From NCBI RefSeq assembly GCF_000165425.1, contig NW_001798964.1, positions 4,813 through 68,812 of the forward strand: a DNA stretch of 64,000 nt, read 5' to 3'. The stretch is from Paramecium tetraurelia. Its lineage: Eukaryota > Ciliophora > Oligohymenophorea > Peniculida > Parameciidae. Of this stretch, positions 25,042 to 61,243 are shown piece by piece. Numbering within the stretch: the first letter of the stretch is position 1; every line of letters starts with the position of its first letter. The notes beneath the pieces were generated by a model, which worked only from the letters and a program-made list of their open reading frames with translations, searched no databases and was not told the DNA's origin. The translations under genes and the position numbers were made by a program.

Positions 25042-25986
25042 TTGAATCAGCAGATTCTTAATATACTTACAACTTCGTCGTTATTCACTATTAAGCAATT
25101 AATTTCATTTTGACTCAGATAAAAATAAGTGTAGTTTTTCTCTTATTTAAAAACAAGAATTAATTTACTCCAAGATAATCAATGCAGGTTTTACATCTTT
25201 AGGGTTATAGATTAATTTAATTTAAGTTAGTTTACTTTATTTTTTTGAGTAATAATAATGAAGTCATCTAATTTTATCCAAAGCTAGAGTTGATGAATTA
25301 TTTAAAAAATGAAAATGATTTGCATTTTATTTTTAATTTTTTAGTGCATGAAATTAGTGTTTTAAAATCAATCTTTTGCTTTGTAGAAAATCGTTTTCAG
25401 TTGATTAATATCTTTGTTAATTTTTATCACTATAATATTACAAAAAAATTATTAATTTAGTATATATAAAATATTTTTTCTCAATTTTGTTTTCAATAGA
25501 TTCCTTATAAATAATAATCGACATAAAGAACTTATATTTTAGAAAAAGAAATTAAATTCTGAGTTTCATTTCAAAGCCCATCTAAACTTAATTTATTTAA
25601 TCAAAATTGCTGTAGAATTTCTCTTCTATTAATTATTAAACCACATTATAAGCATTATCAAAATTATGGTTCGATTTTGTATTATAATTATATTTCTATA
25701 AGCAGTTGGATCTTTGCAGAGTCAATTAACTAGAAAAAACCTATTTTTCAATAATTCTAAAATAAAAGAAGTCTTAATGTTATTTGTTCAATTATAATAG
25801 CATTCCTTCTGACTACCAGTAGGATTCAAACAATATTTAGAATTAAAGTGCATTTTAAGAATTCAATCATGATGTATATATCAGTGAATAAATAAGAATA
25901 AATGGTAGATGTTTAAAATTTTCAAGCTCTTCCAAAATAATTAATATTTTCTTTAGTAAACAATAATAATTATAAATTATAAAAAT
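25042..25986. other. long A+T-rich intergenic region
   Basis: About 950 bp with no frame of interest. The last 200 bp (from about 25785) are the upstream flank shared with the second copy of the duplicated block near 55945. Confidence 0.5.
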
Positions 25987-26550
25987 ATGGGGTGTCTTTC
26001 TTCATCTTAAAAAGAAGAGGATGTTAGCATTGCTTTGTAGAGTTAGAAGAAGTTAAAGATTGTATTCATAGGATTAGAAGGGAGTGGAAAGACAGCAATA
26101 TTATAATATTTGAGAAATGGAAAATTTACCGAAACTTAACCTACTATAGGTTTGAATGTTGAGACAATTTAATATAAACAGAGATTCTATTTGATTTTTG
26201 ATGTTGGAGGGAAAGTGCGAACATTGTGGTCTCATTATTATGATAATTTGGATGGGTTGGTTTTTGTTGTTGACAGTACAAATCAGGAGAAATAATAAGA
26301 GATCTAAAAAGAATTAAAAAAGTTAAGCGAGGATATAAAAACAAAGGTAATTAACCAACTAATCTAGATAGTGTTATTAATGTATCTGAATAAATCAGAT
26401 TTACAAAATTCTTAGACCATGGAATTTGGAGATATTCCATACTCAAAATCAGATGTGATAATCCAAAAATGCAGTGCGAAATCAGGTGAAGGAATCTGGG
26501 AAGGTATTGATAAAATGAATGGATTGTTGGATCAAAAATTCTAATCTTGA
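25987..26550 (+). CDS. ARF-like small GTPase
   Basis: Spliced frame of 180 codons with one 21-nt intron (26347-26367). Starts MGCLSSSQ, so Gly2 could be myristoylated as in ARFs. G1 is FIGLEGSGKT, switch I TQPTIGLNVET, G3 FDVGGK, interswitch LWSHYYDNLDGLVFVVDST, G4 LNKSD and G5 CSAKSGEGIWEG. ARF/ARL proteins recruit coats, tethers and ciliary cargo adaptors to membranes. The catalytic glutamine after DVGG is a lysine here, so intrinsic or GAP-stimulated hydrolysis may be altered. The stop lies 16 bp before the start of the downstream coiled-coil gene. A decayed copy of the start lies at 56118. Confidence 0.9.
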
Positions 26551-26566
26551 TAATTTTATTTAATTA

Positions 26567-27685
26567 ATGTTAACGAACAACTAATATACCTAACATCCAG
26601 TTCAATCTGTTCTATACTAATAATAGCTTTAAACTAATCAGCGACTTCCTCTTTAGCAACTTTAATAACCTGTCTAAATGAAGTTAATATAACCTCAACC
26701 ATCAATGATATTTTAGCAATAAGCAGCTTAGAGTCAACTATATACATAATCAAATCAACATGTTAAAACTATCTAATAACACCATATGTAAAAAACAAAT
26801 CAAGTATTTTAGGCATCATACTCATGAATATAAAATCCCTCAATATTAGTAAGCAATTGTTTCTGCTCCGTAATAATCCATTGTTGCTGCTCCTCCTCCT
26901 CCTTAATAACCTGAAATTAATGAGATGTTTCATGTTGAAAGAGAGTTATAAGTTCTTTCTGTAGAAGATGTAGAGGAACCTTGGAAAAAGAAATGTGTTG
27001 AATTAGAAATTAAAATATTTGATTTGTAAACTGAATTAGGCAGATTTAAAAATTAAGGATAAGAATTGAAAGTTACATCAAATGAGGAATTCCAAGTAAG
27101 AGAATTGGAAGCTAAAATCAAAATGATGAAGGATATTGAGGACGCCTTAAGAAAAGAAATAGAAAGCTAATAAAGTGAAATTGATTCTTGGAGATAGAGA
27201 TATTCCAAATTGCAATTAGAGTTTTAATAATTGTTATAAGGAGGTGAAGAAGTCAGATAGTTAAGAGATGCTTTAGCCGAAAAAGAAAGGCAAATTTTGA
27301 AATTAGAGAATGCAGTAAATTCTTAAAATGTGGAAATGCAAAATTACATGAGATTAATTCAGTAACATTTAAATTTTAATATATTAGAAATAAAGACTAA
27401 GAAATTGCATAGTATAAATAAATGATCCATCAATTAGAATAGGAAATGAGTGAGTATTAATAAACTACTGAAAAAATGAAATATTATTCTAATGAAGCTG
27501 AAATTTGGAAGGAGAGATTTATGAAAGCCAATCAAGATTTTCACACTGCCCAAGAATAATGGATGATGGCTTAAGCTGAATTAGATTCTTTGAAAAAACA
27601 AAAAACTTTTACTACTACTGAAAAAACTACTACTGTTTAATAAACTAATACAAAATAAAGCAAGGCTGCTGCCAAATAGTATTGA
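26567..27685 (+). CDS. 355-residue coiled-coil protein with Gln/Pro-rich head
   Basis: Spliced frame with introns 26788-26812 and 27362-27387. The first 125 residues are Gln/Pro-rich (LQQLQQPVQMKLIQPQPS) and end in VAAPPPPQQPEINEMFHVER. The rest is one long helix (VEEPWKKKCVELEIKIFDLQ, RDALAEKERQILKLENAV, KDQEIAQYKQMIHQLEQEM) with a Thr-rich end (TFTTTEKTTTVQQTNT). It looks like a structural coiled coil such as a cortical or basal-body filament protein; no family was identified. It sits only 16 bp after the GTPase stop. A truncated remnant of its middle survives at about 56190-56430. Confidence 0.82.
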
Positions 27686-28211
27686 AAATTATAATATTAT
27701 TCTTATTTTTTTGAATCAACTTCCTACTCTCATCACATTAATCTAATTCTGATATATTCTCATTAATTAATCTAGGATAAAATTAAGCTACTTCATTGAT
27801 AAATGCTATAAAAGAGTAAATCTATCCTTCATATTTTCTCATTATATGAAAAATAGTTCCTACATCAAACAAATTAAACCTTTATTCATGAAATAAAAAA
27901 TATTTTACTCAAACTTATTCATGATTGAAGAGTTACTTTCTTCAATATAGTTTTACTAACTATTTAATATTAAGAATTATATTAATTCACTTTATTGCAT
28001 ATATATTACTAATGAAATTTATTTTATTATAAATTTGCTTATTCAATATTTAAATCATGATATTTTTTTTTCTCAAGCTTCCTATTTAAGTACAATATTT
28101 AAGAATTTAAATATTCTCAATTTTGGTATTAATATATAAACATATGAGATCATATCTTAAATCTTCAGTTAGCATTTAAATTACAATTATATCAAATTTG
28201 ATTAGCTTTTT
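27686..28211. other. upstream region of the antigen gene, copy A
   Basis: About 525 bp, A+T rich, no coding frame. It presumably held the promoter of the antigen-like gene. Only patchy resemblance to the equivalent region 56431-56973. Confidence 0.45.
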
Positions 28212-30628
28212 ATGATTTCCTTTGTTCTTTATTGTTTGACATTACAATAAGCATCTGCTGATTGTACCACCACTGATTCAGCAAGTTGTGAGGCAGAGAC
28301 AGGTTGTGGTTGGTGGTCAGAAGAAGGCTGTTACAAATGTTCAGATTGGGATTAATCAAATTGTTAAAATGTGTGCGGATGGTACAATTTAGCCTGTACA
28401 AAATGCACCAGCATACCAAATACTTCATGCCTTTCAACAGGATGTGGTCTTTCCTTTAGCAATTAGTGTATAAATTGCGGAGGATTAAGCACTTCAACCT
28501 GTTCTAACTATTTTGGATGCTATTTATCAGGTGGGGCTTGTTATGCAAGTTTATTTAGGACTTAAACTGATTGTGTTTCACCATATGAATGGGTTGATTC
28601 AAAATGTTAAATTTAAGCTTGTTCTTCATCAAAAAAATCAAATTGCATATGTGGAACATCTAGCTTAGTGGTTTGTGGCTCATCAGAAGGATGTAAGGAT
28701 ATTGCAGCCTCAACTGGAGTGTGTAAATAATATTGTGCTTAAAATTTAAACTCAAATTCATGCTAGTGTGGAACAGACTAAGTAGAATGCCTAAGCTCTC
28801 TACATACTGTGTGGACATCAATGCTACATCAGGACAATGTAAATAGGCATGTTCAGGATCAACAGTGTCTGATTGTATATGTGGAACCTCAAGTAAATCC
28901 TATTGTGATTCAACTAAATAATGCTAGAGTAATTCATGTGTATCTGTTGCGAATTGTTCTTCAATTAACTAAAATAACTGTTCATGTGGTAGTTCATCAA
29001 AACAAAATTGTGGTTCAACTACTTATTGCAAAGATCCAACTGCAGCCAGTGGAGTTTGTGTTAATAAATGTTAAGGATCAACTGTAAATAATTGTATTTG
29101 TGGATCTTCAACAGTATCATATTGCAGTTCAACATAAAGATGTGAAGATAATATGGCTAGTTCAGGTAATTGTTTGGATATATGTACTACTAATTTTTAA
29201 AGTAATTGTTCATGTGGTTAAAGTCAATTTAGTAATTGTAATAATTCTAAATATTGTGTGAATGCTTCTGCTTCTAATGGGTAATGTTATGATAATTGTA
29301 CAGATAGTGTTAGATCATCTTGCATTTGTGGAATTGCAACAAAATAAGTTTGTTCTAACTAACAAAAATGCCAAGATCCAACTTCTAATGATGGCAATTG
29401 TATTACTATACCAAATTGCATTAATAATTTTGATAACTCTTGTTTATGTGGTATAACTTAGGTTTCTTAGTGTTCTTAATCTACTTATTGCACTAATGTA
29501 TCTGATTCAACAGGAGTTTGCATATAAAATTGTAATCAAAATTTAAAGTCTAATTGTATTTGTGGTTCAGTTAATAAACTTATCTGTTCTAAAACTTAAG
29601 TATGTTAGAATCCTAATGATATGAATGGATATTGTATAGAAAAATGCGTTACGAATTTATAAACAAATTGCTAATGTGGTAACTCTGTTACTCCTTTTTG
29701 TGGTTCAAATGAACATTGCCATGATGTTTAATAACTTACAGGTAACTGTGTTAAATAATGTAATTTATTTGAAAACAATTGTGTTTGTGGAACATCATAT
29801 TATTCACAATGTTCATCTACCACATATTGTTCATCAAAATCAGAAGGAATTTGTTTAGATTACTGTTCTTACTAATCTTCCAATTGTATTTGTGGAAACA
29901 AAGTCAAATAGGTATGTTCAAATGAAGAAAAATGCGTTGATCCAAATTCAGATAATGGAATTTGTAATTAAGGAACTTGTACATTACAATTTTAATCAAA
30001 TTGTACTTGTGGTTTAAGTAATCAAGCTTATTGCAATAAGAATTAATATTGTTTAGATTAGACAGCACTCATTGGAGTATGTTATGAAAAATGTAAGTAA
30101 AATTAAAATAACTGTTTATGTGGAATAGATTCTATAGATATATGCCATGCTTCAACATATTGTATATTGCAATCTAAAGGTGTTTGTATGTCAGAATGCT
30201 CTTCAACTAATTATCAAAATTGTTTGATATTATCTGAAAACCAAAGCTTGTCTTGATTAACTTGATACTATCTATAATGATCTTACTGCAAAATGCGTAC
30301 CAACTTGCAAAGAAAATGGTTAAAATAATTGTTTTTGCGGTAGTAGGGAGAATGGTTTAGATGTAAAATTAATTTGTTAATCTGGCTTTGAATGCTAAAA
30401 TCTTGGAACAAAATAAAGTGGTTGTTAAGAGAAATGTACAACTAGCAAAACATCAAATTGTTATTGCGGATAAGAAAAGTCTCAATATTGTAATCAAAAT
30501 TAGACCTGTTTAGATGTGACTTAATAGGTAGGAACATGTAAATAACTTTAACTATTTCAAATGCTGATTTTTCTACCAATTTACAAATAGGGCTTTTTGC
30601 AATATTCTGCCTATTAACTATTATTTGA
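28212..30628 (+). pseudogene. surface-antigen-like cysteine-rich gene, broken copy
   Basis: Same protein as 56974-59832: signal peptide MISFVLYCLTLQQASADC, then cysteine-periodic units of the form CxCGxSS...C. Compared with the intact copy, this one has two extra bases at about 28797-28800, one extra base at about 30241-30252 and one base missing near 30543. The first two together shift the frame over some 1.4 kb, so most of the protein is lost. It also lacks two 222-bp repeat units present in the intact copy. The frame-shifted interval is open by chance in the standard code because of the TGT-rich repeats. Confidence 0.8.
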
Positions 30629-31240
30629 ATTTATATAAATCCATTAAGTATATAAACTATTAAAAAATTATTAATTGTCTTAGATGATTATAATCGAAAT
30701 TGTTCAAGAAAAGGATTTCTTTAGGAATTACAATGAAATTAATTTGACAATTTTATAATTTCGTAATAATTTACATTATGAATTGCACTATAAAATACTT
30801 AGTGCAATTTTATGCCAGAAATTGTGTTATAATTTTGCTGAATAAATTCTACTCTCATTTAATAGTACTATAATTGTTCAAGGCTTTGGCATAATCCGGA
30901 TTTTTACTGTTTCAAATTTGAATCTAATTATAATTTATACATAAGTAGGTACTTCTAACCAAGAACACTATATAAGATACTATATACTATTTCTTTATTT
31001 TTTGAAATAACCTGAACTCTGTATATGATATCATGGGGAAAAAGAAAAGTTAAGATAGATGAATAGAAAATTTATCCAAAATATAGGAAGAAATAGTAGT
31101 AATTCAATCAAAAGAGAATGATATATTAAAGCAATAAATGGAAAAAAGAAAAAAATGAGTTCTTCATTAAGATTTATAACTCTTGAATCGATAATATAAA
31201 TGTTAAATAAATTTTATATAATAATATAAAATAATAAATA
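30629..31240. other. intergenic, includes end of the duplicated block
   Basis: No coding frame of note. Around 30995-31030 there is similarity to about 60165-60205, marking the downstream limit of the duplication. Confidence 0.45.
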
Positions 31241-31695
31241 ATGGATAAGAGATTTTACAAAACTTGTTCAAAACATGCTTATTATTAGTATATTAATAGA
31301 TATGATCCAAAATTGTTAGCAACATACTAGACTGGGTATTATCATGGAATCGGCAGACAGTATATTTTCTTATTTAAGTTAAAGAGGGTTATTCAAAACA
31401 TTAGTTTTGAGATAAGCAGGTGATAGCATTGGAATGGAAGAAGATCACAGTTATACATATAAGATGCATGTTATGGCTATGAACTTGATGTATAGAAGTG
31501 GTTGGGTATTATTTGCTTACATTTTAATTTGGAATACATTTTTATTGGGAGATCCTTGTTAAGTATATATTAGTATCTAATGAATAGGTTTTTAATACTT
31601 CATACTGGGACTTAGCATGCAAACCATCAGGAGATATGGATTACAATACAAGATATGAAATGTTGTATGTTCAAGACAGAGTATTAAGATTCTGA
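31241..31695 (+). CDS. 134-residue protein with one membrane segment
   Basis: Spliced frame with introns 31360-31384 and 31563-31587 (25 nt each). The protein starts MDKRFYKTCSKHAYYQYINR, has QAGDSIGMEEDHSYTYKMHV in the centre, one hydrophobic segment (SGWVLFAYILIWNTFLLG) and the end YEMLYVQDRVLRF. A small basic N-terminus with one helix would suit a subunit of a ciliate mitochondrial complex, but this is only a guess from shape. The first intron ends TAAAG. Convergent with the HIT gene, 41 bp between stops. Confidence 0.65.
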
Positions 31696-31736
31696 TCCAT
31701 TAAATATAAAATGTTATTATTATTTTAACCATTTGC

Positions 31737-32135
31737 TCATTTGTTTTAGCTTCCACTGGAACCTGGAGGCCAAGTCAACTATTCTCCTCCAATTATATGA
31801 AGATGAAGATGCCAAACGCTCTGGCCTCCATTTTCTCCATCATTAATGACGACTCTGAATCCTTTCTTCAATTCATCAACTAATTCAACGATCTTAGTGA
31901 CGGTTAACAATAGATGGCCTAAGACTTCCTTATTGTGTTCTTAAGCCTTCGATAATTATGTCAATCCATTTCGTTATTTTGGAATCAACAGAATATGCAC
32001 AGGAGCCTATGGATTGACATCATGAAAAGCAAGGCACTAAATAAAGTTAATTTTTACTAGATCATCCTAATAAACGATGTTTGCTTTTATCTATCCAGAT
32101 ACGATTTTATCAAAGATTGTGACTTCAGCGTCCAT
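31737..32135 (-). CDS. HINT-type histidine triad nucleotide-binding protein
   Basis: Intronless 132-codon frame. The protein begins MDAEVTIFDKIVSGQI; HDVNPQAPVHILLIPKQ forms the nucleotide-binding strand, and VWHLHLHIIGGEQLTWPPG carries the HxHxH triad followed by the WPPG end typical of HINT1. Length is normal for the family. HINT enzymes hydrolyse nucleoside phosphoramidates such as aminoacyl-AMP and are cytosolic or nuclear dimers. Its start is 20 bp from the stop of the PAP2 gene on the same strand, so the two probably have very tight regulatory regions. Confidence 0.93.
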
Positions 32136-32155
32136 TTATAATTAAATTATATTAA

Positions 32156-33686
32156 TCAAAGCTTAATTTAATATTAATCATTATACTCTTTTATTTATTA
32201 ATACAAGCTATCTTAACTTTATTCGTCATCTAATTATTTTCTTTGGCAGAAAAATAGAAAATCTCCAGGGATTTGTAAGTTAAATCTTCTTAAAAGATAT
32301 GGAAATGCTCCATTGACAATAAATCCTGCTCCAAAGCACAATGGAAGTATCTAAAGATCATAATAATAATACTTTGCATATCATCTGTAAAACCACAGAA
32401 TTAGACGAAATGAATAAGAAGGGTATTAAAATTACAAAAGGAAGTAATAATAGGAGGAATCTCTTAAGATGGTATAATGTTGAAAGCTTTTTCTTCCACT
32501 TATTAAAGAGCCCTTCTTCATAAGAACCCTACACTAACACAGCACCAACTAATAATCCAGTAATTAGAGCTCCTACTCCTGTAAACTAAAAACAGGAATT
32601 ATATAATATTTAAGGGGATTCCTTAGTGTAATGAGTTGATTTGCATTCATTGATTCTTGCTATCCATTTACTCATATCGTTTTTATCATAATAGTATAAT
32701 GAATTCATTTTTAATAATCCCAAGGATAATCCCAATAAAACTATCAATAGGAAAAATGCCATAGGAATAATATGATTCATTTCCTCTAATCTACTCCTTT
32801 TGGGATTTACCAAATTTAATATGTATCTAAATTGATATTTTTTGATTAATACTCTCTTAATGATGCATGAATTACAAAAATATACATTAAAGTTATATAT
32901 AGGCCCCAAACCCAACCAAGGAGTACTTATCCTAAAGAATGAACTCCAAGAAATACTCTAGATATTCCAGTCAACACTATGCTTAAAAGGATGAATAATA
33001 TTAGGATCACTTTCATTGCAATTTTAAATTTAGATTAAAGATTGGTATTTACTTAGTATTAACTATTCTTAACTAAATATTCTTATAATTGTTACTCCTA
33101 ACTCTGAATTTTTCTCAGTATATATTGTATACCCTGTAGGAGGTTCTACTTTCTCATTATCTAATGTAATTTAAATGAATACTTACTATCTTAAAAATCA
33201 ACCTAAATTCTATGCCTTCTTAGTTATCTAATTGATGGGAAAAGCAACACAGGCATAAGAATAAGCATAACAATAGAGTTTTGAGAGTGTCCCGATGGTT
33301 TACCGTAGTCTGAGTTGCATTTTAAACTACAATATTATTTTTAGGTACCTCCTAATTTCAGGTTCAATCATGTATGGTCTTGCTTAATGGTAAATGTTTT
33401 TTAAAATCTCATTTGTTGTTACACTTGTTATTACAACACCCAAATAAAGCAATGCATTTAATTTATTGTCGTCATATACGAAACAATAAAATGCTGCTAT
33501 TGGTGGAATGATGACAATGTCTGAGAAGAATTCATAAAATAGCTGCTCGAAAAGAGGAATAGTTTTTTGCATTGATATCGCAAACGACTTGCTAACATCC
33601 CAGAGTTCATCATTAAAAGCTATGTCTATCACGATGTAAGCAATCAACAGAGTAGTAAACACTATTGACAATATTATTTTATTCAT
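32156..33686 (-). CDS. PAP2-superfamily phosphatase, glucose-6-phosphatase-like membrane protein
   Basis: Spliced frame of 468 codons with introns 33327-33348, 33161-33186, 33068-33095, 32827-32852 and 32351-32372. All three PAP2 phosphatase motifs are present: KNIYHQARP (KxxxxxxRP), GKPSGHS (PSGH) and SRVFLGVHSLGQ (SRxxxxxHxxxQ). The first residues form a transmembrane helix and at least six more hydrophobic segments follow. Glutamine replacing the aspartate at the end of motif 3, and overall layout, recall glucose-6-phosphatase-type enzymes of the ER, but lipid-phosphate phosphatase is possible. A soluble basic C-terminus follows the last helix. The 28-nt intron ends TTAAG. Confidence 0.85.
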
Positions 33687-34015
33687 TTAATTATTACGTG
33701 CAAAAATACATATTGCTATTTATAATATGAAATAGCATCATATTGTATAATGTGTAACTTTGTCATTAATTAAATGTTGTTAGGTTGAAATTCATTTCAA
33801 TTCAACCATCTCTATTAGAAATAATAAAATTATGTATAATCATAATAAATGTATTACTTAGACATTATTTAAGAAGATACTTTTTATTAGAATAATATAA
33901 GGATATATTTATTATGCAAAATTTAGATCCCCTTTCTATAACTAAATTTAATAATATTTCAGGTTATAAATGGTTATCAAATGAAATTTTAATTATAATA
34001 TATAAACAAAAATAA

Positions 34016-34705
34016 ATGACTAAAGAAGAAATTAAAGAGGTGGTTGAAGTTATCTTAAAAGATAAGTTAGGTTAAATTTGGTCTAAAATAGCAAATCTTG
34101 AAGAAAGGTTTTAAATTTATGAGAGATAACTAACTTAATAGCAAAGTGATGTTTAAAAAAATGCCAATAATTAGAATGGCTAAATTCTTCATTTGGGGAA
34201 GAAATTTAATGAGTTGATCAAACAATTATAAGCAGCTTAGGATGCAGCTAACTAAGTTGTAGAAATGACTGAGCGAAAAATATAGGAAACTTAAAAAGTT
34301 AAAAAGAATTAGCAGAAAAAATTGGAAGAGTTATATAAAAATTAAAATTTACAACAATAAATAAATTCAGGATTTTCATAATTAATTAAAAGTTAATAAC
34401 AATAATAGCAATAACAACAGCAATAACAATAACAATAATAATAACAACAGCAATAACAATAATTATAACAACAGCAATAACAATAATAATAGCAATAACA
34501 ATAACAATAATAGTAATTATAATAATAATACTATTAATTTTAAACTCAATAAGGAGTACCAGAAGGCATGGTATTTAGAACAAGAAATGGTACTAAATAT
34601 CATCTTAGAAATTGTGAGCATGTGCAAAAATATTAAACTTTAATGATAACTATAGAATAGGCTCGAGAATAAAATTTGACTGGCTGTTTGAATTGTAAAT
34701 CATGA
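34016..34705 (+). CDS. coiled-coil, polyQ protein with C-terminal Cys-His zinc motif
   Basis: Open frame of 229 codons from the ATG at 34016. The in-frame ATG at 33914 would add 34 residues, but the later start follows a more typical A+T-rich leader. An N-terminal coiled coil (EEIKEVVEVILKDKLGQIWS, VVEMTERKIQETQKVKKNQQ) is followed by about 45 glutamines. The end is a compact motif: YHLRNCEHV...ITIEQAREQNLTGCLNCKS. The YHxxxC ... A...G.x.C..C spacing resembles the small metal-binding module of Ada-type and nuclease-associated domains. Function unknown; metal or nucleic-acid binding is inference. Confidence 0.7.
34394..34532 (+). repeat. polyglutamine-coding tract
   Basis: Nearly pure CAA/CAG/TAA/TAG run inside the preceding gene, encoding about 45 glutamines with two leucines. 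Confidence 0.85.
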
Positions 34706-34764
34706 CTTAAATAATTTTTTTAATTCTATTAAAAAGGTCTTATTAAAATTTAGTTAAATAGACT

Positions 34765-35929
34765 TCATTCCATATATTGAGGTTTTTGTTTTCCAGTTCT
34801 AAGAGTGCATCCAGCACAATGCAATAATGCAACAGCAGCATAGATTGGTCCTTTTTTAAGTAAATCTGATCTAAATGCTATACCCATATATTCGCCATTT
34901 AATGCGAAGGAGAGTGTACCTAAAGTAATTAAAGTTAAGAGTACCATTAAGCATGTTTAAGCAAACTCCAAGAATTCCTTCTTTTTTGAATCTTTTACCA
35001 TAAGTTTATCCAGATGCATTGCTTCCATTTCTTAATTATGCTAATCCATAATAAGCGAAGCCTTGATTTAAGTCGCAGAAAGCAGCATTCAAATTAATGG
35101 CATTTCCTTAACAAACTCCAATTTTTAATTCATTTTCAGTTTTAGCATCTGCTTCAATTTCCCAATAATGAATACCAGTTTCAAATCCCTAAAAATGTTA
35201 AAAATTGTTTAAATACCTGATCTCCCAAAACTGTTCTGAAAATGTATGAACTTTCTTTAAGGAAGACACTAGAATCACCATTTAACAATTAAATGCCTGT
35301 GCCACATTTGTTTTTATCCCATCTAAAACTTGGACATCCATCAACACTGAGAACGGGTTGTATTGCAGGTTATTTATTTTAGGATAGAAAGCCTGATACT
35401 TATCCAGATCCTGTTAACTTCTGTTGAAGCTTCTTAATAATATCGTATTATTTTTTAGGATCCGACACATTTTCAAACAATTGCACTGTCAACTCACATA
35501 GTATGCTGCAATATGATGTTTAACTAAAGTTGATTAATAAGATTACTATTTCTCTTCAGCAGACAAAAACTCTTTACAATTTTCATGATTTAAACATTTA
35601 ACTTTAATACATTGATTTTGATGTTATTCGATATCTATAATAGAACACAATTTTTTGCATTCAGGATTTGAGCAGAATAATTACAAGTTCTTATAAACCT
35701 TAAGCATTGCTCCTTAAATTTTAATATACTTAGGAGTATTATCTGAAGAATTTGGTGGATATCCACAATCTGAGCTTTTGCAAGGAGGCTTTGTTGCCAC
35801 ACAATCAGAGCAGTACATTTAACCACAAAAATTGCATTCATATGGGTCTTTTACTACTTTATTGCAAACCAAACATATCAGATGTTGTTGAGGTTGAGGC
35901 TAGAATCGATTAATGTCGTACCCAGACAT
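34765..35929 (-). CDS. RING/TRAF-type zinc finger and SPRY domain protein
   Basis: Spliced frame of 362 codons, introns 35524-35546, 35189-35216 and 34920-34944. A RING finger lies at residues about 19-50 (LICLVCNKVVKDPYECNFC, MYCSDCVA). A TRAF-like Cys/His stretch follows (CSNPECKKLC, HQNQCIKVKCLNHENCKEFL). The C-terminal half is a SPRY domain: FETGIHYWEIEAD, LKIGVCQG, LGVCLNMLNGTLSFALNGE and KKGPIYAAVALL. This layout suggests a TRIM-like E3 ubiquitin ligase choosing substrates through SPRY. The 5' end is 350 bp from the divergent kinase gene. Strong domain calls; substrate unknown. Confidence 0.9.
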
Positions 35930-36281
35930 AATTTATTTTGTTGAAATTAATTAAAATTTGTATTCAATAATTCATTTAAATTTCGAATGTTTGTAATTCT
36001 GATAAAAGCAATTCTATATAAATTATACACTAACTTTAATGAAATACTATATAAAGACTTCTCCTGACTTCTCTGCACTTTAATAAGATACTAAAAACTC
36101 AATATAAAGCTTCAACTATAGTTATTTTGGGTTTCATATTTTAGAACACCTTTCTCATTTTGATGAATGTATTACTGATTTGTACTTGTCTTAGTTATTT
36201 ATAGTATTAAAATGAAACTAATCTGATTTGATTTATAAATTACTCTTGTAGAAAATTTAAAACAAACAAACTAATTTATTA
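35930..36281. other. divergent intergenic region
   Basis: 350 bp between two divergent starts, A+T rich, no coding frame; presumably holds both promoters. Confidence 0.5.
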
Positions 36282-37777: not shown

Positions 37778-37806
37778 ATTATTATTTTTATAATTATTTT
37801 ATATTT

Positions 37807-49270: not shown

Positions 49271-49404
49271 TATTCTTATTATTATTAATCCAATAATCAA
49301 AGATTCTGTATTATAAATTAGCAAATTATAATACCGAATGTAAATCAATAACATATAGCAATGATTGCTTAATTAGAACAATTATTATTTTAAGTATTAT
49401 ATTT

Positions 49405-50424: not shown

Positions 50425-50522
50425 TAAAATTTAATTAAAATTTTCATTTTTTTCATGTTAATTATTGATTTTGTGATTACCTAAAATATTGTTTAAAATA
50501 AAAGAATAAATAAATAATAAAA

Positions 50523-52635
50523 ATGAATCCCTACAAGTATCAATCTTGTGACCTGCCAGATCATGATGCTGAGTACCTCAATATGGTGTGCATAGATGAG
50601 AAATGCAACAAGCGACAAATGTTGTGTTGCTATTGCTAATCGGAGCATCAAAAATGCAAGACCATCCCTCTGAGAAAGTTCACCAAACAATTTCAGGATC
50701 AACTAAATCAACTTACCTAGGAGACTTCCAAAGTAAAATACACTGAGTACTTTGATTCTCTCATTATTTTAGTCTGATACTATACTTTGATTAAATTGAA
50801 GCCACATTAGAATAGTCTCAGAAATTAATTAATGAAATATTCAATAAAACAAAATCAGCCATTCATGAGTACTTTTTCATCCATATCGATTTAGTGCCAA
50901 GAACTCAATATAATAAATGACTACTTCTGATGCCTAACCATAGAGTCAAGGCTGCATCCTACAAAAGTTCGAATCAGAACCATCCAAAGAAAACTTCTGT
51001 AAACTCCTGATTGAAATTGAGTCCTTCAAACCCAATTCTGATAAGTACTCATTTACACTCAAGAAAAATGCATCCAAATAATTGCCTCAATCTACTGAAA
51101 GTGTTGCAAATGGGAAGATCTATGCTTAACAATACTAAAGTGCAGCCAACACATTTACTGAATAATTCTTAAATCTCCATGAAGTTCTAAAGAGGAATAT
51201 CACTAACTTTTTTACAAGTGCTCCCACCAGAGTAACAGAACCAGACAATGATGGCAAACGCTTTGATAAATTCAAGTCTGACAACATCTTTACACAAGTC
51301 TCTCATCCCAATCAATAATAATAACAACAACCTAAATCAATCATCTCAATCGAAGATGATATAGATCCTCCTAAACCAAACAAAGAATAGAAACCAAGTT
51401 AAAAAAAGAAACAGAATGATGTTGTCTCTCTGCCCTCCGAAGAGGATGGATGCACTCTAAGTTAATTCAAGCAATATCTGGACAAATCAACCGCCAATAA
51501 AAAGGAATAAGGCAACAAATAAAATACTAATCCAATCCCACAATAAAAGTAATAATAGTAGGAAGTGATACAACCAAAATAACCTGAAATACCTAACAAT
51601 AAAGGTAATCATTTAGTAATACACCACTAGCATTGTCTTAAGATGACAATATTGGTGAGGGTGAGACTATCCTGAATGTTTAGGAATCTAAGGAATTTCA
51701 ATTTATGTTTGAAGGCTAGGAGATTACCAAGTTGATCTATTTGAATAAGAATCTGATTGGAGGAATAGGTGGAACCAAGTGCATGATCTTTGATGTTTCA
51801 CCTAAGGATTAGGAAAGACCGATAAGAATTCAAACACTCCAATATGATGTAGAATTTACTGACATAGCCTATTTGGAAATGGATGAAGAGAATGGATAAC
51901 TCTATTTGGCTACGAAGAAAGGCAATATGCTTACATATATAAAAGAAGGAGTTAAGAATATATCATTTAGACAGACTTACAGTTCGACTCACAGTTTGGA
52001 TAAGCCTGGAAACTTGTTTCTTTAGGTGAGTGCAGTAGATAAGTGTTTATACAGTGTAGGTGATGAGAAGACTATCAAGATTTGGTCAATGAAGACAATG
52101 AAGGAGTTGAAAAGAGTAGCAATACAGGATCTACCAACTGCCTTTCACTTAGACTACAAGATTGCCTTCGTTGGAGGAAGCAACTTCATTTAAATCTGGG
52201 AGCCAACCACGGGAGTTGTTACTCATATGAAAGGGTTGGATTCTAAGGTCACTAAAATATTGACAAATGACTAGAAGATGTTTGTGAGTATGATGCTCAA
52301 AATTAAGATCTATGATAAAGTTGGATTGGGAGAGTATCATCTATCCAAAGAAGTCACCTTTGGATAAATCTTTTCTATGCAATTATTGAAGACATGGCCG
52401 ATGCTTGTAATCTCATACATGGAGGTATCATCATATCATAATGTGTTAGAAATCAGTTGGCAAAGTCAGCTTGTATAATTATGTTGATGAATTGCAACCT
52501 GAAACTCTTGTGGATAGATTGGCATTGAGTTGTGCTGTGAAAGAGCAGGAGAGAGTTAATTATTTGGCATTTGGATTGAGTAATGGAATATGCTTAATAT
52601 ATAAGATGGAATAGACATTTTAGTAGTCACAATGA
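50523..52635 (+). CDS. B-box zinc finger and WD40-like propeller protein
   Basis: Spliced frame of 669 codons; introns 50747-50772, 50869-50894, 51605-51630 and 52425-52449. The N-terminus is a B-box-like Cys/His module (SCDLPDHDAEYLNMVC, CCYCQSEHQKCKTIPL). Then a helix, and a low-complexity linker rich in Gln, Pro and Ser (IISIEDDIDPPKPNKEQKPS). The C-terminal half is a WD40-type propeller (MFEGQEITKLIYLNKNLIGG, LYSVGDEKTIKIWSMKTMKE, KIAFVGGSNFIQIWEP, LAFGLSNGICLIYKME). TRIM-like layout without RING. The last codons overlap the 3' end of the convergent kelch gene by 9 bp. Confidence 0.85.
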
Positions 52636-54545
52636 TTTATGAATTAAATTATGATACATCATATTTTCTTGTCTAAGTATTCTCTGTCTTCTTTGAGCAG
52701 TGTCTTTTTGATACACTTCGTTGATGTTGTGGAATTGCTTAAGGATGTCTTTGTTGCTCCTGATTTGTTATCTCACTTGTATTTCTTATTTGTATCTCTC
52801 TTCAAAAGACTTGTGAAATGAAATCAGAATATTTTTATATTCTTACTTTCTCTAATCAATGAGATTGAGGATGTCTTCATTGATAGATGTCTCCAAGAGA
52901 TTCTCACTCTGTCCCTTCACAAACACTTTGTCCATTTCAAAAATATACAAGGATGTTTTCCTGTAAAGATCTTCCAAAGCCAAAGCCTTCCTGTATACAA
53001 GTTTCCTTTTCTTCCTTTCAAATGCCAACAATTGCAATATCCTATTTATTGTAGACTGACTTTGATCAGCCTTTTGATTGAGTTCGGTTATTTCGATTCT
53101 TGTATTCTCAAGATCCTAATCCATCTTCAATTTTCCAATATCAATTTATTCCTGCAACTTCTCAGCCTTCTATTCAAGCAATTGGGAATTCTATTACAAT
53201 TGTTTCAAGTCCTTTTCTTTTTCACCAATAGTTCTCTTCTATTCCAAAATGATCTTTTCAGCCTCATCAAATACTAAAGTCAAAGTTGGAACAGTGACAG
53301 TTTTGTTCTCCTTCTTCAATTCTCTATACGTATCATATTTGTTCTTCTCCTTCTCATCTTTCTCATCCCAAGCCCTCTCTTTGCCTCCATGTCCAACTCA
53401 TGCAACACATATATGCATTAATTCTACAGTCCCATCATTCAATCTCCCTCCCAATAACATGATTTCTCCATGAACTTCATTTTGATTGCATGACATCACA
53501 TAACCAAACCTAGGAGCTGGAATATAACCACCAGCAACAGGTTTAGACCAATACCCTTCATTCAAATTCAATAGATATAGATCATTCAAAGGCTCTGAAT
53601 TCTTTAACTAATTCTCATTCACATTGTATCCTCCATACAAACACAATAAGTTCTCCTTAACGACCAATAATTCCTTAAAATATGATCACTATTTACATGA
53701 AATGCTCTCTAACCAGGTGATTATCCTTTCAATTCCAATTAACTTATATCGTAAGTCTCTATATCCAATAATAGACAACGATCCTAACATTATTTTTATT
53801 TATTGAATCCTCCATAGACCAACAACTCTTTATCTGATACTTGTATCATAGTGTGTGCTTTGATAGCTGGCATATCATCAAATGGCAGTTTCTCCCAAGT
53901 AATTCCTGGTAACTCCAATGATTGAGTTTCCCATGCCACATTTTCAAACTAATTTATTTACAAATTTTGCTTACAGACAATTGCCATACATCATCCATCA
54001 ATAGATTTTCAGGCATACTTGCTCCCCCCATCAAATATTTCTTCATTCCTTAAGTTGAGAATCCAAAATGCAATCTACCTGGAGGACCTTCCAAATAAAA
54101 GAATCGTTTCCACACAAACTTCTCTGTATTCAATATGTACAAATCACTAACAGTTTTATTCTCATATGTGATCCCTCCATACACATACAACAGTGGTGCT
54201 TCATACCAAACCTATGCACTCGTTCTTCTAGTTGGGGGTTTCCCTGTACATTTCTTGATACTCCATGAATAAGTAGCTGGATCCAATATGTACACATAAT
54301 CCTAGCATTCTTGATTACTAAATGGACTACTCACTCTTGTCTACTTTGGAGCACCTATTTTAAAGGATATTCCGTCGCTTTTTGGAGGAGATGGCTACTT
54401 CTCTAAGCTATAAATTCAATTGCATACCTTCCTATTACAAATCCTTAATATTGAATGGGTTCTTGCCTCCAAAGTATAGATATCGATTCTGATCAATCAA
54501 ATACACCAAATTAACACACTCCTACTAACTTAGGTGGACGACCAT
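52627..54545 (-). CDS. kelch-repeat propeller protein with C-terminal coiled coil
   Basis: Spliced frame of about 606 codons; introns 54403-54427, 53949-53974, 53674-53696 and probably 53385-53408. Kelch blades: LYFGGKNPFN, YILDPATYSWSIKKCTGKPP, LLYVYGGITYENKTVSDLYI, HFGFSTQGMKKYLMGGASMP, LLVYGGFNKQ, LLCLYGGYN and EIMLLGGRLNDGTVELMHI. A long coiled coil follows (KTIGEKEKDLKQLQQN-like, LEQKAEKLQEQIDIGKLKMD). The 53385-53408 interval contains an in-frame TGA (53398-53400). Treating it as a 24-nt intron (GTG...GAG) removes it, but both ends are atypical. A further 5' exon is likely, because a good intron (GTAAGT...TATAG) ends 5 bp before the first ATG. Confidence 0.82.
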
Positions 54546-54681
54546 GTTTCTCTATAAAATTTGAATTAATCACTTACTGTTGTCAATTTCAATTTTTCTT
54601 CCAAAATAACTATTACATAAATTAATGAACTAAACCAAACACTTTCCAAGATTGTGAAAAAGCTATGAAGGATTGGTAACT

Positions 54682-54951
54682 ATGGGCAGAGAACCAACAA
54701 ATGTAATTCAACCTTTATCACACATTAGTCTCAATCCTGAAGAATTGCCGCCCTTGCACTTTACACCCAAAGACCAAAAAAACAAGAGTGCTTTCAAACT
54801 GTTCAAACTCGATCATATTGTTGAAGTCAAGAAATAACATCCTGAATATGGCTTCAAGGAGAGATTGGAAACACTCAAACACATGTGGCGTAACCTCACT
54901 AAAGATGAAAAATTCATTTATGTTCAGAAAAGTAAACAATTGAAATTTTGA
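54682..54951 (+). CDS. HMG-box protein, 89 residues
   Basis: Intronless frame. After 30 Pro-rich residues (LSHISLNPEELPPLHFTPKD) comes one HMG box: KSAFKLFKLDHIVEVKKQHP, then YGFKERLETLKHMWRNLTKD and EKFIYVQKSKQL. The F..F, W..L and KxxY positions fit the box. HMG-box proteins bend DNA in chromatin or mitochondria. Very short for the family, so it may be a chromatin-architecture protein of the HMGB type. It lies about 140 bp from the first ATG of the kelch gene, and the two starts diverge. Confidence 0.8.
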
Positions 54952-55944
54952 ATTGATTATATATAATTTTATTGTTATTTGCTAAAACAATTGTTATTAA
55001 GGAACTATCTACTTTTCTTTTGTCATTTAATTATATAAACCCAGAAATATTATATTATACATGCAGAAATACTATTGCCATAAGATTAATATATGAATAT
55101 CATTTAATATATTTCAACTTCTTCTTGTACTAATATATATCTATAAAATACTTTGGGTATTTAGGTAATATCAAATGACTGTGTAAAATTGCAAAATTTT
55201 CATATTTTTATAGCCTCAAGATTATCTATCAATTTAATTAAAAATTAATGAAATGAATATCGTGTAATTGATAACTCTATAGCAATCATTTTAAGAACAC
55301 TTAATCACATTTCTATTGACTAGAGATTTCGATTCCACATACGAGAGACAGTGAAATATCATTCCAAATGTTATTACAACTTACATTAAACATTATATAA
55401 TCAAATCATTAGGTAAAAAGTTAAGTATAAATAAATGCTTTTGTAACACTTATCCTAATAAAAGTTCATGAATGAAAAACTTTTTTAAATCACGAAAATC
55501 ATTAGAGAGGACCTTCCCTTAAGTTTTCTGAATTATTATTGTTAACTTTAGTATAGCCTATTATTAATATATCAAAGTCATTTTTATATAAATAAATCTT
55601 GAGTATAAAATTTAAATTGCTAGCAAATGTTAATTTTTGGTTTGCAGAGTAAATGACCTATGTAACTCTCCATTTCCCTAAATTTAATTATTTTAGTAAG
55701 TTCAAATACAAAATTTATATAATTTAATATAAAGATATAATCCTAAGCTAAATTTATAAAAATTGATAAAAACCCACATAAGATGATATATTTTCAAAAC
55801 CAATGTAAACTCTCCTAACAGCTTTGCTTATTTTGCCGGATAATAAGTGATAATCAAATTATAAATAAATTAACTTATCCAATAAACCAAGTATCTTGGA
55901 TAACCCTACTTTCATAATCTAGAACAAATGTTGAAATAATATAA
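54952..55944. other. long A+T-rich intergenic region
   Basis: About 1 kb with no open frame worth reporting and no RNA gene recognised; ends at the left border of the duplicated block. Confidence 0.5.
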
Positions 55945-56117
55945 GTCGTACAATTATAATAGCATTCCTCCTGAATACCAGTAGCTCTCAAATAAAAAAT
56001 TATTAAATCATGATGTATTTCATTGAATGATTATAAAAAAATGCTAGAATATTAAAATTTTTAGAGCTCTTTCCCCAATCATAAAATTTCTTTAAATAAA
56101 AACTATAATTATAAATT

Positions 56118-56430
56118 ATGGGGTAGCTTTCTAAAAAAGAAGAGGAGGTCGGTATTGCTGTGTAAAGTTAGTTACATAATTATATATTTTTGGTGCTCCT
56201 TCTACTCCTTTTAACCTGAAATCTATGAGGTATATCATTTGTAAAGAGAATTGTATATTCTTTCAGTAGAGGATGTAGAGGAATATTAAAAAAGAAATGT
56301 TTTAAAATAAAATATTTGATTTGTAAGTTTAAATAGCCAGATAAAATTAAATGTAAAAAAAATTGAAAGTTACATCAAATGAATATTTTTCAAGAAAGAG
56401 AATTGGAGCTAAAACCACAATGATGAAGGT
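56118..56430 (+). pseudogene. fused remnant of the ARF-like and coiled-coil genes
   Basis: Begins like the ARF gene (ATGGGGTAGCTTTCTAAAAA, against ATGGGGTGTCTTTCTTCATC at 25987). After about 50 bp it jumps to the middle of the coiled-coil gene (AGTAGAGGATGTAGAGGAA, AAGTTACATCAAATGA, AAAGAGAATTGGAGC). One or more deletions removed the rest of the GTPase and the head of the coiled-coil gene. Frames are broken and no protein can be read. Confidence 0.75.
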
Positions 56431-56973
56431 GTTTAATAAACTTAAACAAGATCTAATAGTTTTTCAACTCATCTAATTCATATCATCTCATTAATATTTA
56501 TATATTTAACTTTACTGCACTCAAAAATAATTACAAATTCATAAATTATATTTTTAATTTGTAAAATACTTTAATAAGAAATCAAACTAAAATCTATCAG
56601 TTTCAAAACCTTTTTGTTTATATATAGAAATGTAATTATTTAAGTGAATCTTTATGAAGAAAAAAAAAATTTAAACATTTGTATGGAAAAGTAAAAGAAA
56701 TGAAATTCTAATAATTTCTTTCATTTTTAACCTATATAATCCATGCTTTATAAGTCCTAATCTGCTGACATATAATTTTATTGCTCAATAGCATCCAAAT
56801 ATTTTATGCCTAAAATTTTTATATTTATTGCTAGTAAAATTGGTAATTAGTAATATAAATGTCTTTGTTAATTCTAAATATAAATAAAAAATTAACGATC
56901 TTATAAAATCTTTGCTTTAAATATTAATTCTTCAATTAATCACTATTAGAAAATTTATAACTTAAAACCTTTG
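56431..56973. other. upstream region of the intact antigen gene
   Basis: About 540 bp, A+T rich, no coding frame. It should contain the promoter and silencing signals of the antigen gene; only weakly similar to the equivalent stretch of copy A, so the two genes may be regulated differently. Confidence 0.45.
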
Positions 56974-59832
56974 ATGATTTCTTTAGTTCTTTTTTATTTG
57001 ACATTACAATAGGCATCTGCTGATTGTACCACCACTGATTCAGCAAGTTGTGAGGCAGAGACAGGTTGTGGTTGGTGGTCACAAGGAGGCTGTTACAAAT
57101 GTTCAGATTGGGATTAATCAAATTGTTAAAATGTGTGCGGATGGTACAATTCAGCCTGCACAAAATGCACCAGCATACCAAATGCTTCATGCCTTTCAAC
57201 AGGATGTGGTCTTTCCTCTAGCAATTAGTGTATAAATTGCGGAGGATTAAGCACTTCAACCTGTTCTAACTATTTTGGATGCTATTTATCAGGTGGATTT
57301 TGTTATGCAAGTTTATTTAGGACTTAAACTGATTGTGTTTCACCATATGAATGGGTTGATTCAAAATGTTAAATTTAAGCTTGTTCTTCATCAAAAAAAT
57401 CAAATTGCATATGTGGAACATCTAGCTTAGTGGTTTGTGGCTCATCAGAAGGATGTAAGGATATTGCAGCCTCTACTGGAGTGTGTAAATAAAATTGTGC
57501 TTAAAATTTAAATTCAAATTCATGCTTGTGTGGAACAGACTAAGTAGAATGCCTAAGCTCTACATACTGTGTGGATATTGCTGCTACATCTGGATAATGT
57601 AAATAGGCTTGTTCAGTATCAACGGTTTCAGATTGTATATGTGGAACTTCAAGTAAATCTTATTGTGATTCAACTAAATAATGCTAGAGTGATGCTTGTG
57701 TAACTTTAACAGTAAATTGTGCATCTGCTTTTGATGCCAGCTGTTCTTGCGGAAGTTCAACCAAATAAACTTGTACTTCAACTACTTTTTGCGTTGATCC
57801 AACTGCATCATCTGGATCGTGTAAATAAGCTTGTTCAGTATCAACGGTTTCAGATTGTATATGTGGAACTTCAAGTAAATCCTATTGTGACTCTACTAAA
57901 TAATGTTAGAGTGGTGCTTGTGTAACTTTAACAGTAAATTGTGCATCTGCTTTTGATGCAAGCTGTTCTTGTGGAAGTTCAACAAAGTAAAGTTGTACTT
58001 CAACAACCTTTTGTGTTGATCCGACTGCATCCTCTGGATAATGTAAATAGGCATGTTCAGGATCAACAGTGTCTGATTGTATATGTGGAACCTCAAGTAA
58101 ATCCTATTGTGATTCAACTAAATAATGCTAGAGTAATTCATGTGTATCTGTTGCGAATTGTTCTTCAATTAACTAAAATAACTGTTCATGTGGGAGTTCA
58201 TCAAAACAAAATTGTGGTTCAACTACTTATTGCAAAGATCCAACTGCAGCCAGTGGAGTTTGTGTTAATAAATGTTAAGGATCAACTGTAAATAATTGTA
58301 TTTGTGGATCTTCAACAGTATCTTATTGCAGTTCAACATAAAGATGTGAAGATAATATGGCTAGTTCAGGTAATTGTTTGGATATATGTACTACTAATTT
58401 TTAAAGTAATTGTTCATGTGGTTAAAGTCAATTTAGTAATTGTAATAATTCTAAATATTGTGTGAATGCTTCTGCTTCTAATGGGTAATGTTATGATAAT
58501 TGTACAGATAGTGTTAGATCATCTTGCATTTGTGGAATTGCAACAAAATAAGTTTGTTCTAACTAACAAAAATGCCAAGATCCAACTTCTAATGATGGCA
58601 ATTGTATTACTATACCAAATTGCATTAATAATTTTGATAACTCTTGTTTATGTGGTATAACTTAGGTTTCTTAGTGTTCTTAATCTACTTATTGCATTAA
58701 TGTATCTGATTCAACAGGAGTTTGCATATAAAATTGTAATCAAAATTTAAAGTCTAATTGTATTTGTGGTTCAGTTAATAAACTTATCTGTTCTAAAACT
58801 TAAGTATGTTAGAATCCTAATGATATGAATGGATATTGTATAGAAAAATGTGTTACGAATTTATAAACAAATTGCTAATGTGGTAACTCTGTTACTCCTT
58901 TTTGTGGTTCAAATGAACATTGCCATGATGTTTAATAACCTACAGGTAACTGTGTTAAATAATGTAATTTATTTGAAAACAATTGTGTTTGTGGAAAATC
59001 ATATTATTCACAATGTTCATCTACCACATATTGTTCATCAAAATCAGAAGGAGTTTGTTTAGATTACTGTTCTTACTAATCTTCCAATTGTATTTGTGGA
59101 AACAAAGTCAAATAGGTATGTTCAAATGAAGAAAAATGCGTTGATCCAAATTCAGATAATGGAATTTGTAATTAAGGAACTTGTACATTATAATTTTAAT
59201 CAAATTGTACTTGTGGTGTAAGTAATCAAGCCTATTGCAATAAGAATTAACATTGTTTAGATTAGACAGCACTCATTGGAGTATGTTATGAAAAATGTAA
59301 GTAAAATTAAAATAACTGTTTGTGTGGAATAGATTCTATAGATATATGCCATGCTTCAACATATTGTATATTGCAATCTAAAGGTGTTTGTATGTCAGAA
59401 TGCTCTTCAACTAATTATCAAAATTGTTTGATATTATCTGAAAACCAAGCTTGCCTTGATTAACTTGATTCTATCTATAATGATCTTACTGCAAAATGCG
59501 TACCAACTTGCAAAGAAAATGGTTAAAATAATTGTTTTTGCGGTAGTAGGGAGAATGGTTTAGATGTAAAATTAATTTGTTAATCTGGCTTTGAATGCTA
59601 AAATCTTGGAACAAAATAAAGTGGTTGCTATGAGAAATGTACAACTAGCAAAATATCAAATTGTTATTGCGGATAAGAAAAGTCTCAATATTGTAATCAA
59701 AATTAGACCTGTTTAGATGTGACTTAATAGGTAGGAACATGTAAATCAACTTTAACTATTTCAAATGCTGATTTTTCTACCAATCTACAAATAGGGCTTT
59801 TTGCAATATTCTGCCTATTAACTATTATTTGA
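56974..59832 (+). CDS. surface-antigen-like GPI-anchored cysteine-rich protein, intact copy
   Basis: Single open frame of 952 codons, no intron. The signal peptide is MISLVLFYLTLQQASADC. Then regular cysteine units: CxxxxDSASCEAETGCGWW near the start and repeated CICGTSSKSYCDSTKQC / CSCGSSTKQTCTSTTFC pairs. The end is a short hydrophobic tail (LQIGLFAIFCLLTII) after NADFSTN, as expected for a GPI-anchor signal. This matches the Paramecium surface-antigen (PSA) periodic-cysteine pattern, though it is much smaller than classical immobilisation antigens. Such proteins coat cell and cilia and are expressed one at a time. Nearly identical to the broken gene at 28212 but with two more 74-residue units. 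Confidence 0.88.
57611..58276 (+). repeat. three tandem 222-bp (74-codon) units in the antigen gene
   Basis: Units start at 57611, 57833 and 58055, exactly 222 bp apart. The first two are nearly identical; the third starts alike and then diverges after the CDSTKQCQS segment. The broken copy at 28212 has only the third type, so two units were gained here or lost there. Confidence 0.88.
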
Positions 59833-61243
59833 AATTATATGACCATTATTGATGATATATAAATTATTAAAATATCTTTTTCAAATAGAATTCTTCGTTT
59901 ATTAAATTTAGTTCACAAATCTCAATCTCTAACTAATAAATTTCTAAATCTTTTTTGTAAATATTAGTCCCTTTATTAATCTAACCTTATTTGTAAAAAA
60001 AAAATTTATATTGTGTATATTTAAAAATATTTACCCTTTTTTTAATTGCTTTATAAAGATTATTGTTTATTTAAAGAATGATTTTGGTTGATCCTTATTC
60101 GATATCAAGGATTTTAGTTGGCTGAATAAAATAAGTTTTGGATAAATTGCACAATTTTTATTTCTTTATTGTTGAAATGACCAGAACTTTGTATAAATTT
60201 TAAAACAAATTCAATCTATAAAATTACTTTAATCCTCCAATTATAAAAGTGACTTTCAAATTAAAATAGAAGTAAAAATCTTCTGAAAAAAATAAGAAAT
60301 TGTATGAAATAAAATTTAAATGGATAAGGCAAGTCAATGTAATGATGTGTTGTTTACTGATAGAAAAAGTACTTATTAGTTTATTCAGATTAAGTAGAAT
60401 AATAAATAATACTTTGCCTTAGTATTTCAAAATATGGCAATATATAAGTATATTTTTATATATATGATATAACGAGTTCGATTAATGGATAATTTTTAAT
60501 TAAGCAAACCTTACACAAGAGTACTGATGCATGAATTAAATATAAGAATAATATAATCATTGTTAAACTTAGTATATTAAGATAATTTATAGTTTTTATT
60601 TTTTTAGATGTAATTATAATTAAGTTTTAAAGTTTAATATTGAATAATTAAAAATATATTATTCGTATATTTAAAGAGTATGATGTGGTACTAATCAAAA
60701 TTCCTCTTGTAAAATTATTGTAATGGTTGTCCTAAATAAATCAATAAAAAGTACTAATGACACTATTTTCGATGGCTTGTTTTAGTTTGAGTTTTTATTT
60801 TTAATATTTTGTTCAAGTTATATATAATCCTATTTTTAAATTGAATAATTATTTAATTGAATCTCATTTATACAGAATTTTATTTTTAGAACAAAAAAAG
60901 TTGAAAATAAATATTTTCAAACAGGACTCTTTGTTGATTTTTTTATGTAAAAAATGATTTCTTCCAAAAGTAATATAAATTGATTGAAAATCTCTAACTA
61001 TGTTGATTTCTAATTTATTATTTTATATATATTAGTGAGAGACAAGACAAAAATACATTAAGCTACGTCAGAATATTTAACAGTATAAATTAACTTCTTT
61101 AAACAAGACTTCAATATTAATATGATCAGAAGTTATCAATTAATGAGTTAGGTTCATTCCCAGTACAGTATTTAAATATACTTATATGATAATATTAAAG
61201 ATTTGGGCATTTATTTTAATTATTTTTTTATTGTTCAGAGTCT
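59833..61243. other. very long A+T-rich intergenic region
   Basis: About 1.4 kb, the longest gene-free stretch in the window. The first 370 bp still resemble the right flank of block A. No open frame, RNA gene or other repeat recognised in the remainder. Confidence 0.5.

Follow-up and report, generated by a model that had tools for sequence, protein, structure and literature searches.

Probable gene conversion between antigen-like genes of a duplicated block on one Paramecium tetraurelia chromosome

Results

Gene content of the two blocks

The window analysed here is a stretch of 64,000 nucleotides of Paramecium tetraurelia DNA that corresponds to positions 4813-68812 of one contig (C11) in an assembly of 69.07 Mb and 231 contigs. 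With the standard code it holds three open reading frames of at least 120 aa, and with ciliate code 6 it holds 97 of at least 150 aa; introns of 20-26 nt are present in genes of the window and of the genome. Comparison of the window with itself, followed by shuffle tests, identified two homologous blocks, A (25.6-31 kb) and B (55.9-60.2 kb), in which a left flank, an Arf-like GTPase gene, a coiled-coil gene and a cysteine-rich antigen-like gene (antigen, for short) are arranged in the same order (Table 1). The initial annotation had added a right flank to this list. The other four parts are indeed shared in the order proposed, but the right flank amounts to one 37-nt patch and a short stretch that follows the antigen stop codon. 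A second cysteine-rich frame, of 1290 aa, is located on the minus strand at 575-4447; it has repeated CGDG...DGC motifs and hydrophobic C-terminal segments and is unlike the antigen in style.

Table 1. Features of blocks A and B, with positions counted from the first nucleotide of the window
Feature	Position	Strand	Remarks
Inverted antigen relic	25636..25845	-	left edge of block A; identical to antigens A and B at 155/206 aligned bases
Left flank of block A	25723..25986	.	common to block B; overlaps the inverted antigen relic
Arf-like GTPase A	25987..26550	+	whole, 180 aa; intron 26347-26367 (21 nt)
Coiled-coil gene A	26760..27685	+	open to stop 27683-27685; intron 27362-27387 (26 nt); start codon uncertain
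Antigen A	28212..30628	+	three frameshifting indels; one 222-nt unit; TGA 29259-29261 in frame from ATG
Right-flank patch of A	30988..31025	.	33/37 identical to B 60159-60195; reciprocal best tile, barely over background
Left flank of block B	55888..56117	.	homologous to A 25723-25978
GTPase stub of block B	56118..56171	+	start codon region only
Coiled-coil stub of block B	56177..56429	+	fused to GTPase stub
Antigen B	56974..59832	+	open frame, 952 codons (56974-59829); 15% cysteine; hydrophobic ends
222-nt (74-codon) repeat units	57560..58225	+	three in antigen B; one in antigen A
Right-flank patch of B	60159..60195	.	partner of A 30988-31025

The left flanks (A 25723-25978 and B 55888-56117) are identical at 182 of 227 aligned bases, and when the start of the GTPase gene is included (A 25723-26046 and B 55888-56171), 229 of 282 bases are identical; none of 200 shuffles was as good in either comparison. 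On the right side, homology of the blocks appears to be barely detectable. The patch listed in Table 1 has a score of 49 (0/200 shuffles as good), and the next-best tiles score 45 among 354 tile-and-strand combinations of the window and 40 among 352. The short stretch directly after the antigen stop codon shows weak similarity, with 24 of 1000 shuffles as good. Homology was not detectable between the coiled-coil gene and the antigen (38/200 shuffles as good), nor was any found just upstream of the antigen in a comparison of 80 nt (390/1000) or of 50 nt (570/1000).

The inverted antigen relic at the left edge of block A scores 101 against the antigens, compared with 38 for the next best among 264 tile-and-strand combinations and 39 for the best of 200 Markov-chain shuffles. 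It is nearer to antigens A and B than to the related copy on contig C134 (score 39). A weak trace of the relic is found in the same register of block B (55948-56008), where its score of 33 is non-significant on its own. The ancestral order of the block was probably inverted antigen relic, GTPase, coiled-coil gene and antigen.

The GTPase and coiled-coil genes are open in block A and truncated in block B

The GTPase of block A had been annotated as a whole gene, and it does encode 180 aa after removal of its single 21-nt intron. With the intron left unspliced, the frame matches the Pfam family Arf (PF00025) at E=3.7e-37, and the product resembles the Arf-like small GTPases in having the P-loop, switch I and NKxD. 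Full-length GTPase frames are also found on contigs C10 (~7380-7970) and C229 (~287660-288250), whereas the stretch of C64 beside its coiled-coil locus yielded a GTPase match at background level only (score 36). The three full-length proteins differ from the Arf-like family in lacking both the catalytic Gln that follows DxGG and a residue next to it, the sequence being DVGG-K, two residues shorter; Arf-like proteins encoded by C207 and C197 of the same genome keep the Gln in DIGGQDK. The GTPases of block A, C10 and C229 would form an atypical, possibly slow-hydrolysing subfamily. A 20-nt intron found in the C10 and C229 copies is missing from GTPase A exactly at the splice site, and a second intron, of 21 nt, is common to all three.

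The coiled-coil gene of block A had likewise been described as whole, and its frame is open to the stop after one 26-nt intron. Both genes are deleted and fused in block B, again as first described: A-position 26046 is followed within 5 nt by the equivalent of 26871, the intervening 824 nt (26047-26870 of block A) have no counterpart in block B, and the two stubs are joined. The coiled-coil piece that remains (A 26871-27132 and B 56177-56429) is identical at 211 of 248 bases, with 0/200 shuffles as good. Further coiled-coil loci, compared by their first exons only, lie on C64, C10 and C229, and on C10 and on C229 they are near the GTPase locus. In a tree of the coiled-coil piece, B adjoins A with a support of 66; A and B share three derived sites, A and C64 also three, and B and C64 none, which is weak evidence for the grouping of A with B.

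Antigen B is open and antigen A is frameshifted

Antigen B is uninterrupted over 952 codons and antigen A is broken by small indels, in agreement with the initial annotation. Three frameshifts of 1-2 nt were located in A, which has two extra nucleotides near 28796 and one near 30243 and lacks one near 30544; read from its own ATG, A continues for 349 codons to a TGA. Antigen A aligns over the whole ORF and is 444 nt, or two 222-nt units, shorter than B. Units of 222 nt are present in the C134 copy as well, where TRF finds two, and the derived state is therefore more likely to be the short array seen in A. Among the candidates listed, which give lower bounds, the antigen family occurs on C11 and once on C134, where an open frame of ~1030 aa is 74% identical at the nucleotide level and 65% identical in amino acids over 596 aligned codons. 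An antigen match was not found in the stretches downstream of the coiled-coil gene on C64, C229 and C10. On the minus strand at 56603-59038 there is an 811-aa open frame antisense to antigen B, which we take to be no gene because shadow frames are expected with a single stop codon (TGA).

Cysteine makes up 15.0% of antigen B, with 60 of the 141 Cys residues recurring at a lag of 38 residues, and its most hydrophobic 16-residue windows lie at the two ends, at residue 1 and at the extreme C-terminus, which is where a signal peptide and a GPI-anchor signal would be sought. In appearance this may be a secreted and anchored repeat protein rich in cysteine, and we call it antigen-like for that reason. 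It shares with the variable surface antigens (SAg) of Paramecium their cysteine richness and regular cysteine spacing (Cys lag 38, 222-nt units), and departs from them in two respects. One is size, since a published screen, according to PMC9788069, kept proteins of >1000 aa, with an SAg average of 2200 aa, and antigen B has 952 aa. The other is the domain PF01508 (Paramecium_SA): hmmscan up to E=10 found no family in any of three queries, antigen B, the C134 frame and a piece of A of 550 aa. A genome search for PF01508, in which 150 of 1370 candidates were scored, placed all 150 above the cut-off (control genomes, 0/14), and none of these 150 places is on C11 or C134. Antigen B had no BLASTP match up to E=10 with the frame of a C179 locus carrying PF01508 hits, and a PDB search with the antigen gave no relative up to E=1, so that no named family emerged from the Pfam, PDB and genome searches. 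We file the protein in an antigen-like family, rather than as a proven serotype antigen. The contigs C51, C93 and C179 contain dense PF01508 clusters, in some of which the same score recurs at several positions along a contig.

When the 3′ part of the antigen was polarised with the C134 copy (1765 sites), six changes (three synonymous) were assigned to A and seven (three synonymous) to B, and five were unclear. Because A has no excess of amino-acid changes, its frameshifts would appear to be recent, or else to be sequencing errors.

It had been noted that the two blocks together retain exactly one working set of the three genes. This is correct inside the window but not genome-wide, given the further GTPase, coiled-coil and antigen copies on C10, C229, C64 and C134. 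Two independent losses in a duplicated block hit different copies with a probability of one half, and complementary selection therefore draws no support from the pattern. To speak of opposite loss is fair locally, but such a pattern is unremarkable by itself.

Genomic context of the blocks

Contig C11 is collinear with C64, to which the window segments 15612-20675, 26539-27782, 31191-32917 and 34754-35660 correspond; C10 and C229 form a pair of their own. We read the C11/C64 pairing as the product of the latest whole-genome duplication. Blocks A and B were considered as whole-genome-duplication partners and rejected as such, the partner contig of C11 being C64, with C10/C229 as a related pair. 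Collinearity with C64 is seen on both sides of block A. It also includes window 51690-54995 and thus extends up to 0.9 kb left of block B, which has different neighbours; the next C11/C64 anchor to the right of block B is outside the window, at C11 ~73.8 kb. Approximately 14 kb of C11 (54995-64000 and on to ~73.8 kb, block B inside) stand opposite only 3.2 kb of unrelated DNA on C64. The block B region may be an insertion in C11 or may reflect a loss in C64; both would fit. In the interval from the coiled-coil gene to the next gene in common (27685-31190), C11 has the antigen. C64:203214-208324 has other open frames there, and these have no match in the window or in the C229 stretch.

These comparisons bear on the possibility that block B, or the indels of antigen A, are artefacts of assembly or sequencing. 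The indels themselves lend it some substance, as all three are of 1-2 nt, with one situated within a short CT repeat and another within a run of A, and they may still be errors. The blocks, however, are not one sequence assembled twice: the left-flank alignment contains 53 substitutions and 17 indels, and collinearity with C64 on both sides of A and close to the left side of B is combined with different neighbours of B. We regard an artefact as highly improbable. Flank divergence and the different neighbours rule out both an assembly duplicate of the block and a single recent uniform duplication.

The antigen ORFs are more alike than the rest of the block

Identity was compared along the blocks. 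The antigen ORFs of A and B differ at 43 of 2418 aligned sites, compared with 53 of 282 for the left flank and GTPase start together (Fisher p=7e-29), which bears out the earlier statement that the antigen coding parts are far more alike than the flanks. By codon position the 43 differences are divided 12/12/19, and 19 of them are synonymous and 24 non-synonymous (dS 0.038, dN 0.012), so that synonymous sites are alike too. The longest identical run between the two antigens is 373 nt, and no 23-mers are shared between the blocks in the left flank (0/302) or in the coiled-coil piece (0/240).

Two causes of this similarity had been suggested, strong selection and gene conversion after an older duplication, and of these only the second is compatible with synonymous sites that have hardly changed. 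An old duplication followed by strong purifying selection on the antigen protein, with no conversion, would be in keeping with the constraint on the family (dN/dS ~0.2 between antigen B and C134, from dN 0.229 and dS 1.117). Protein selection, however, cannot explain a dS of 0.038 while the left flank and GTPase start reached 53/282, and one of the two copies is broken. An extreme constraint on codon choice is contradicted by the dS of 1.1 between B and C134. In view of the synonymous sites, the identity of the antigens cannot be put down to purifying selection, and we give this account next to no credence.

The divergence between the antigens drops in steps from 5′ to 3′, with 25 of the 43 differences falling within the first 626 aligned sites and the other 18 within the last 1792; none of 1000 permutations produced an equally strong change point after 626 sites. 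Across this step the synonymous sites alone differ at 10/137 and 9/371, respectively (p=0.016). The first 43 sites by themselves contain six differences (p=8e-5) and are nearly flank-like, as expected if they represent an older shared ORF start that would lie outside a conversion tract. The similarity begins ~4 nt before the ATG and fades just past the stop. Beyond these limits, homology on the left is clear only at a distance (the flank and the GTPase and coiled-coil stubs) and is absent just upstream of the ATG; on the right it is weak. The antigens display two marks of a conversion tract, high identity, synonymous sites included, within a more diverged block, and stepped divergence along the gene.

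One could envision another origin for so well-delimited a similarity, in which the old duplication comprised the flank, GTPase and coiled-coil gene only and the antigen ORF was copied later, for example as a cDNA or by ectopic insertion. The coincidence of the similarity with the ORF limits and the unrelated upstream sequences would follow directly from such an event. It requires, however, that the insertion by chance hit the equivalent site in the same orientation, and it predicts uniform divergence, whereas the observed divergence is stepped and the first 43 sites look older. The weak homology past the stop and the 37-nt patch of the right flank also speak against it. We consider a recent copy of the ORF unlikely.

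Relative age of the duplications

For comparison with the genome duplication, dS between C11 and C64 was 0.727 for a kinase gene, 0.558 for an ankyrin-type gene and 0.907 for the coiled-coil gene, with two, four and zero codons, respectively, dropped for stops. Two further values, 0.313 for a kinesin gene and 0.532 for the gene at 31230, were not used, as there were stops and frame trouble in these stretches; the kinesin value is the one nearest to that of the flank. The dS of coiled-coil gene A with C229 was saturated. The difference of the left flank and GTPase start between A and B corresponds to ~0.22 after Jukes-Cantor correction. The likely order of events is genome duplication, block duplication and antigen exchange. 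The flank value is probably too low, because local alignment favours conserved parts, and the genome and block duplications may be closer in time than 0.22 implies.

Discussion

From the observed homologies, indels, stepwise divergence and genome copies we infer an order of events and a mechanism. The locus is best explained, and with good probability, by an old segmental duplication within one Paramecium chromosome that was followed by gene conversion confined to the antigen ORF. According to this scheme, an antigen-family gene would have arrived, on the C11 lineage, beside an ancestral GTPase/coiled-coil pair. The resulting block, composed of inverted antigen relic, GTPase, coiled-coil gene and antigen, would then have been copied ~30 kb along the chromosome. 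The copies would have drifted apart, B losing 824 nt over the GTPase and coiled-coil genes and the noncoding DNA diverging. The antigen ORFs, long and similar enough to pair, would later have undergone exchange, in all likelihood repeatedly, and the most recent event would have covered the 3′ three quarters of the ORF. Exchange would end near the ORF limits because flank homology was already gone. Antigen A would afterwards have been frameshifted three times and would probably have been shortened by two repeat units, B keeping its frame open.

The evidence for an old antigen gene in both blocks comes from the gene order, the diverged ORF start, the weak traces on the right side and the shared relic, because upstream homology is undetectable and the right flank is nearly gone. 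Some observations may count against conversion: the step at synonymous sites has a p of only 0.016, the support in the coiled-coil tree is 66, and the trace of the relic in block B is non-significant by itself. As an example of gene conversion we regard the locus as clear but fairly ordinary: events of this kind are known, and this one is well resolved at a single locus. Our literature search, which covered only a minority of subscription papers, returned no report recognisable as this locus.

Gene conversion between whole-genome-duplication paralogs of Paramecium is reported to be widespread in PMC10195154 and PMC11334263, and a few cases are given in PMC3464196. As in those described in PMC10195154 and PMC11334263, the paralogs studied here look younger than their true age, and steps in Ks are the published signature. 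The present case differs in that the copies stem from a local duplication, the tract is bounded by a single ORF and one partner was broken afterwards. A second point of comparison is the intrachromosomal antigen isogenes of Paramecium, which PMC9788069 dates after the last whole-genome duplication and for which it states the origin to be unknown. Like these surface-antigen isogenes, A and B are near-identical, cysteine-rich, repeat-bearing copies on one chromosome and not whole-genome-duplication partners. Unlike the isogenes described there, the antigen lacks a PF01508 match and is smaller, and the flanks date the duplication as older than the ORF similarity suggests.

A further reading is that the broken antigen A acts as a trans-silencer, which would feed the siRNA pathway of Paramecium and hold B silent, repeated conversion keeping the pair matched. 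Trans-silencing by defective copies is described in PMC4937312 and PMC6735861, which also count antigen genes among the small-RNA clusters and raise the possibility that pseudogenes could act in this manner. The likeness to the truncated transgenes of PMC4937312 is that of a defective, near-identical copy to an intact gene, and its authors suggest that pseudogenes could trigger siRNAs; the difference is that antigen A is frameshifted and is no truncated transgene. The reading is testable, because of these precedents and because 1700 of the 2837 23-mers of antigen B are found exactly in A and none in C134. We hold it to be decidedly doubtful.

The flank at this locus indicates an older duplication than the antigen ORF does. 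This single case postdates the last genome duplication as well and is thus in no contradiction with the dating given in PMC9788069. If refreshing of the ORF is common, coding similarity would be a poor clock for such genes, and flanks would be preferable. In this locus nature also provides a compact test of the idea that a damaged copy can silence the intact gene to which it is nearly identical, in line with the pseudogene suggestion in PMC4937312.
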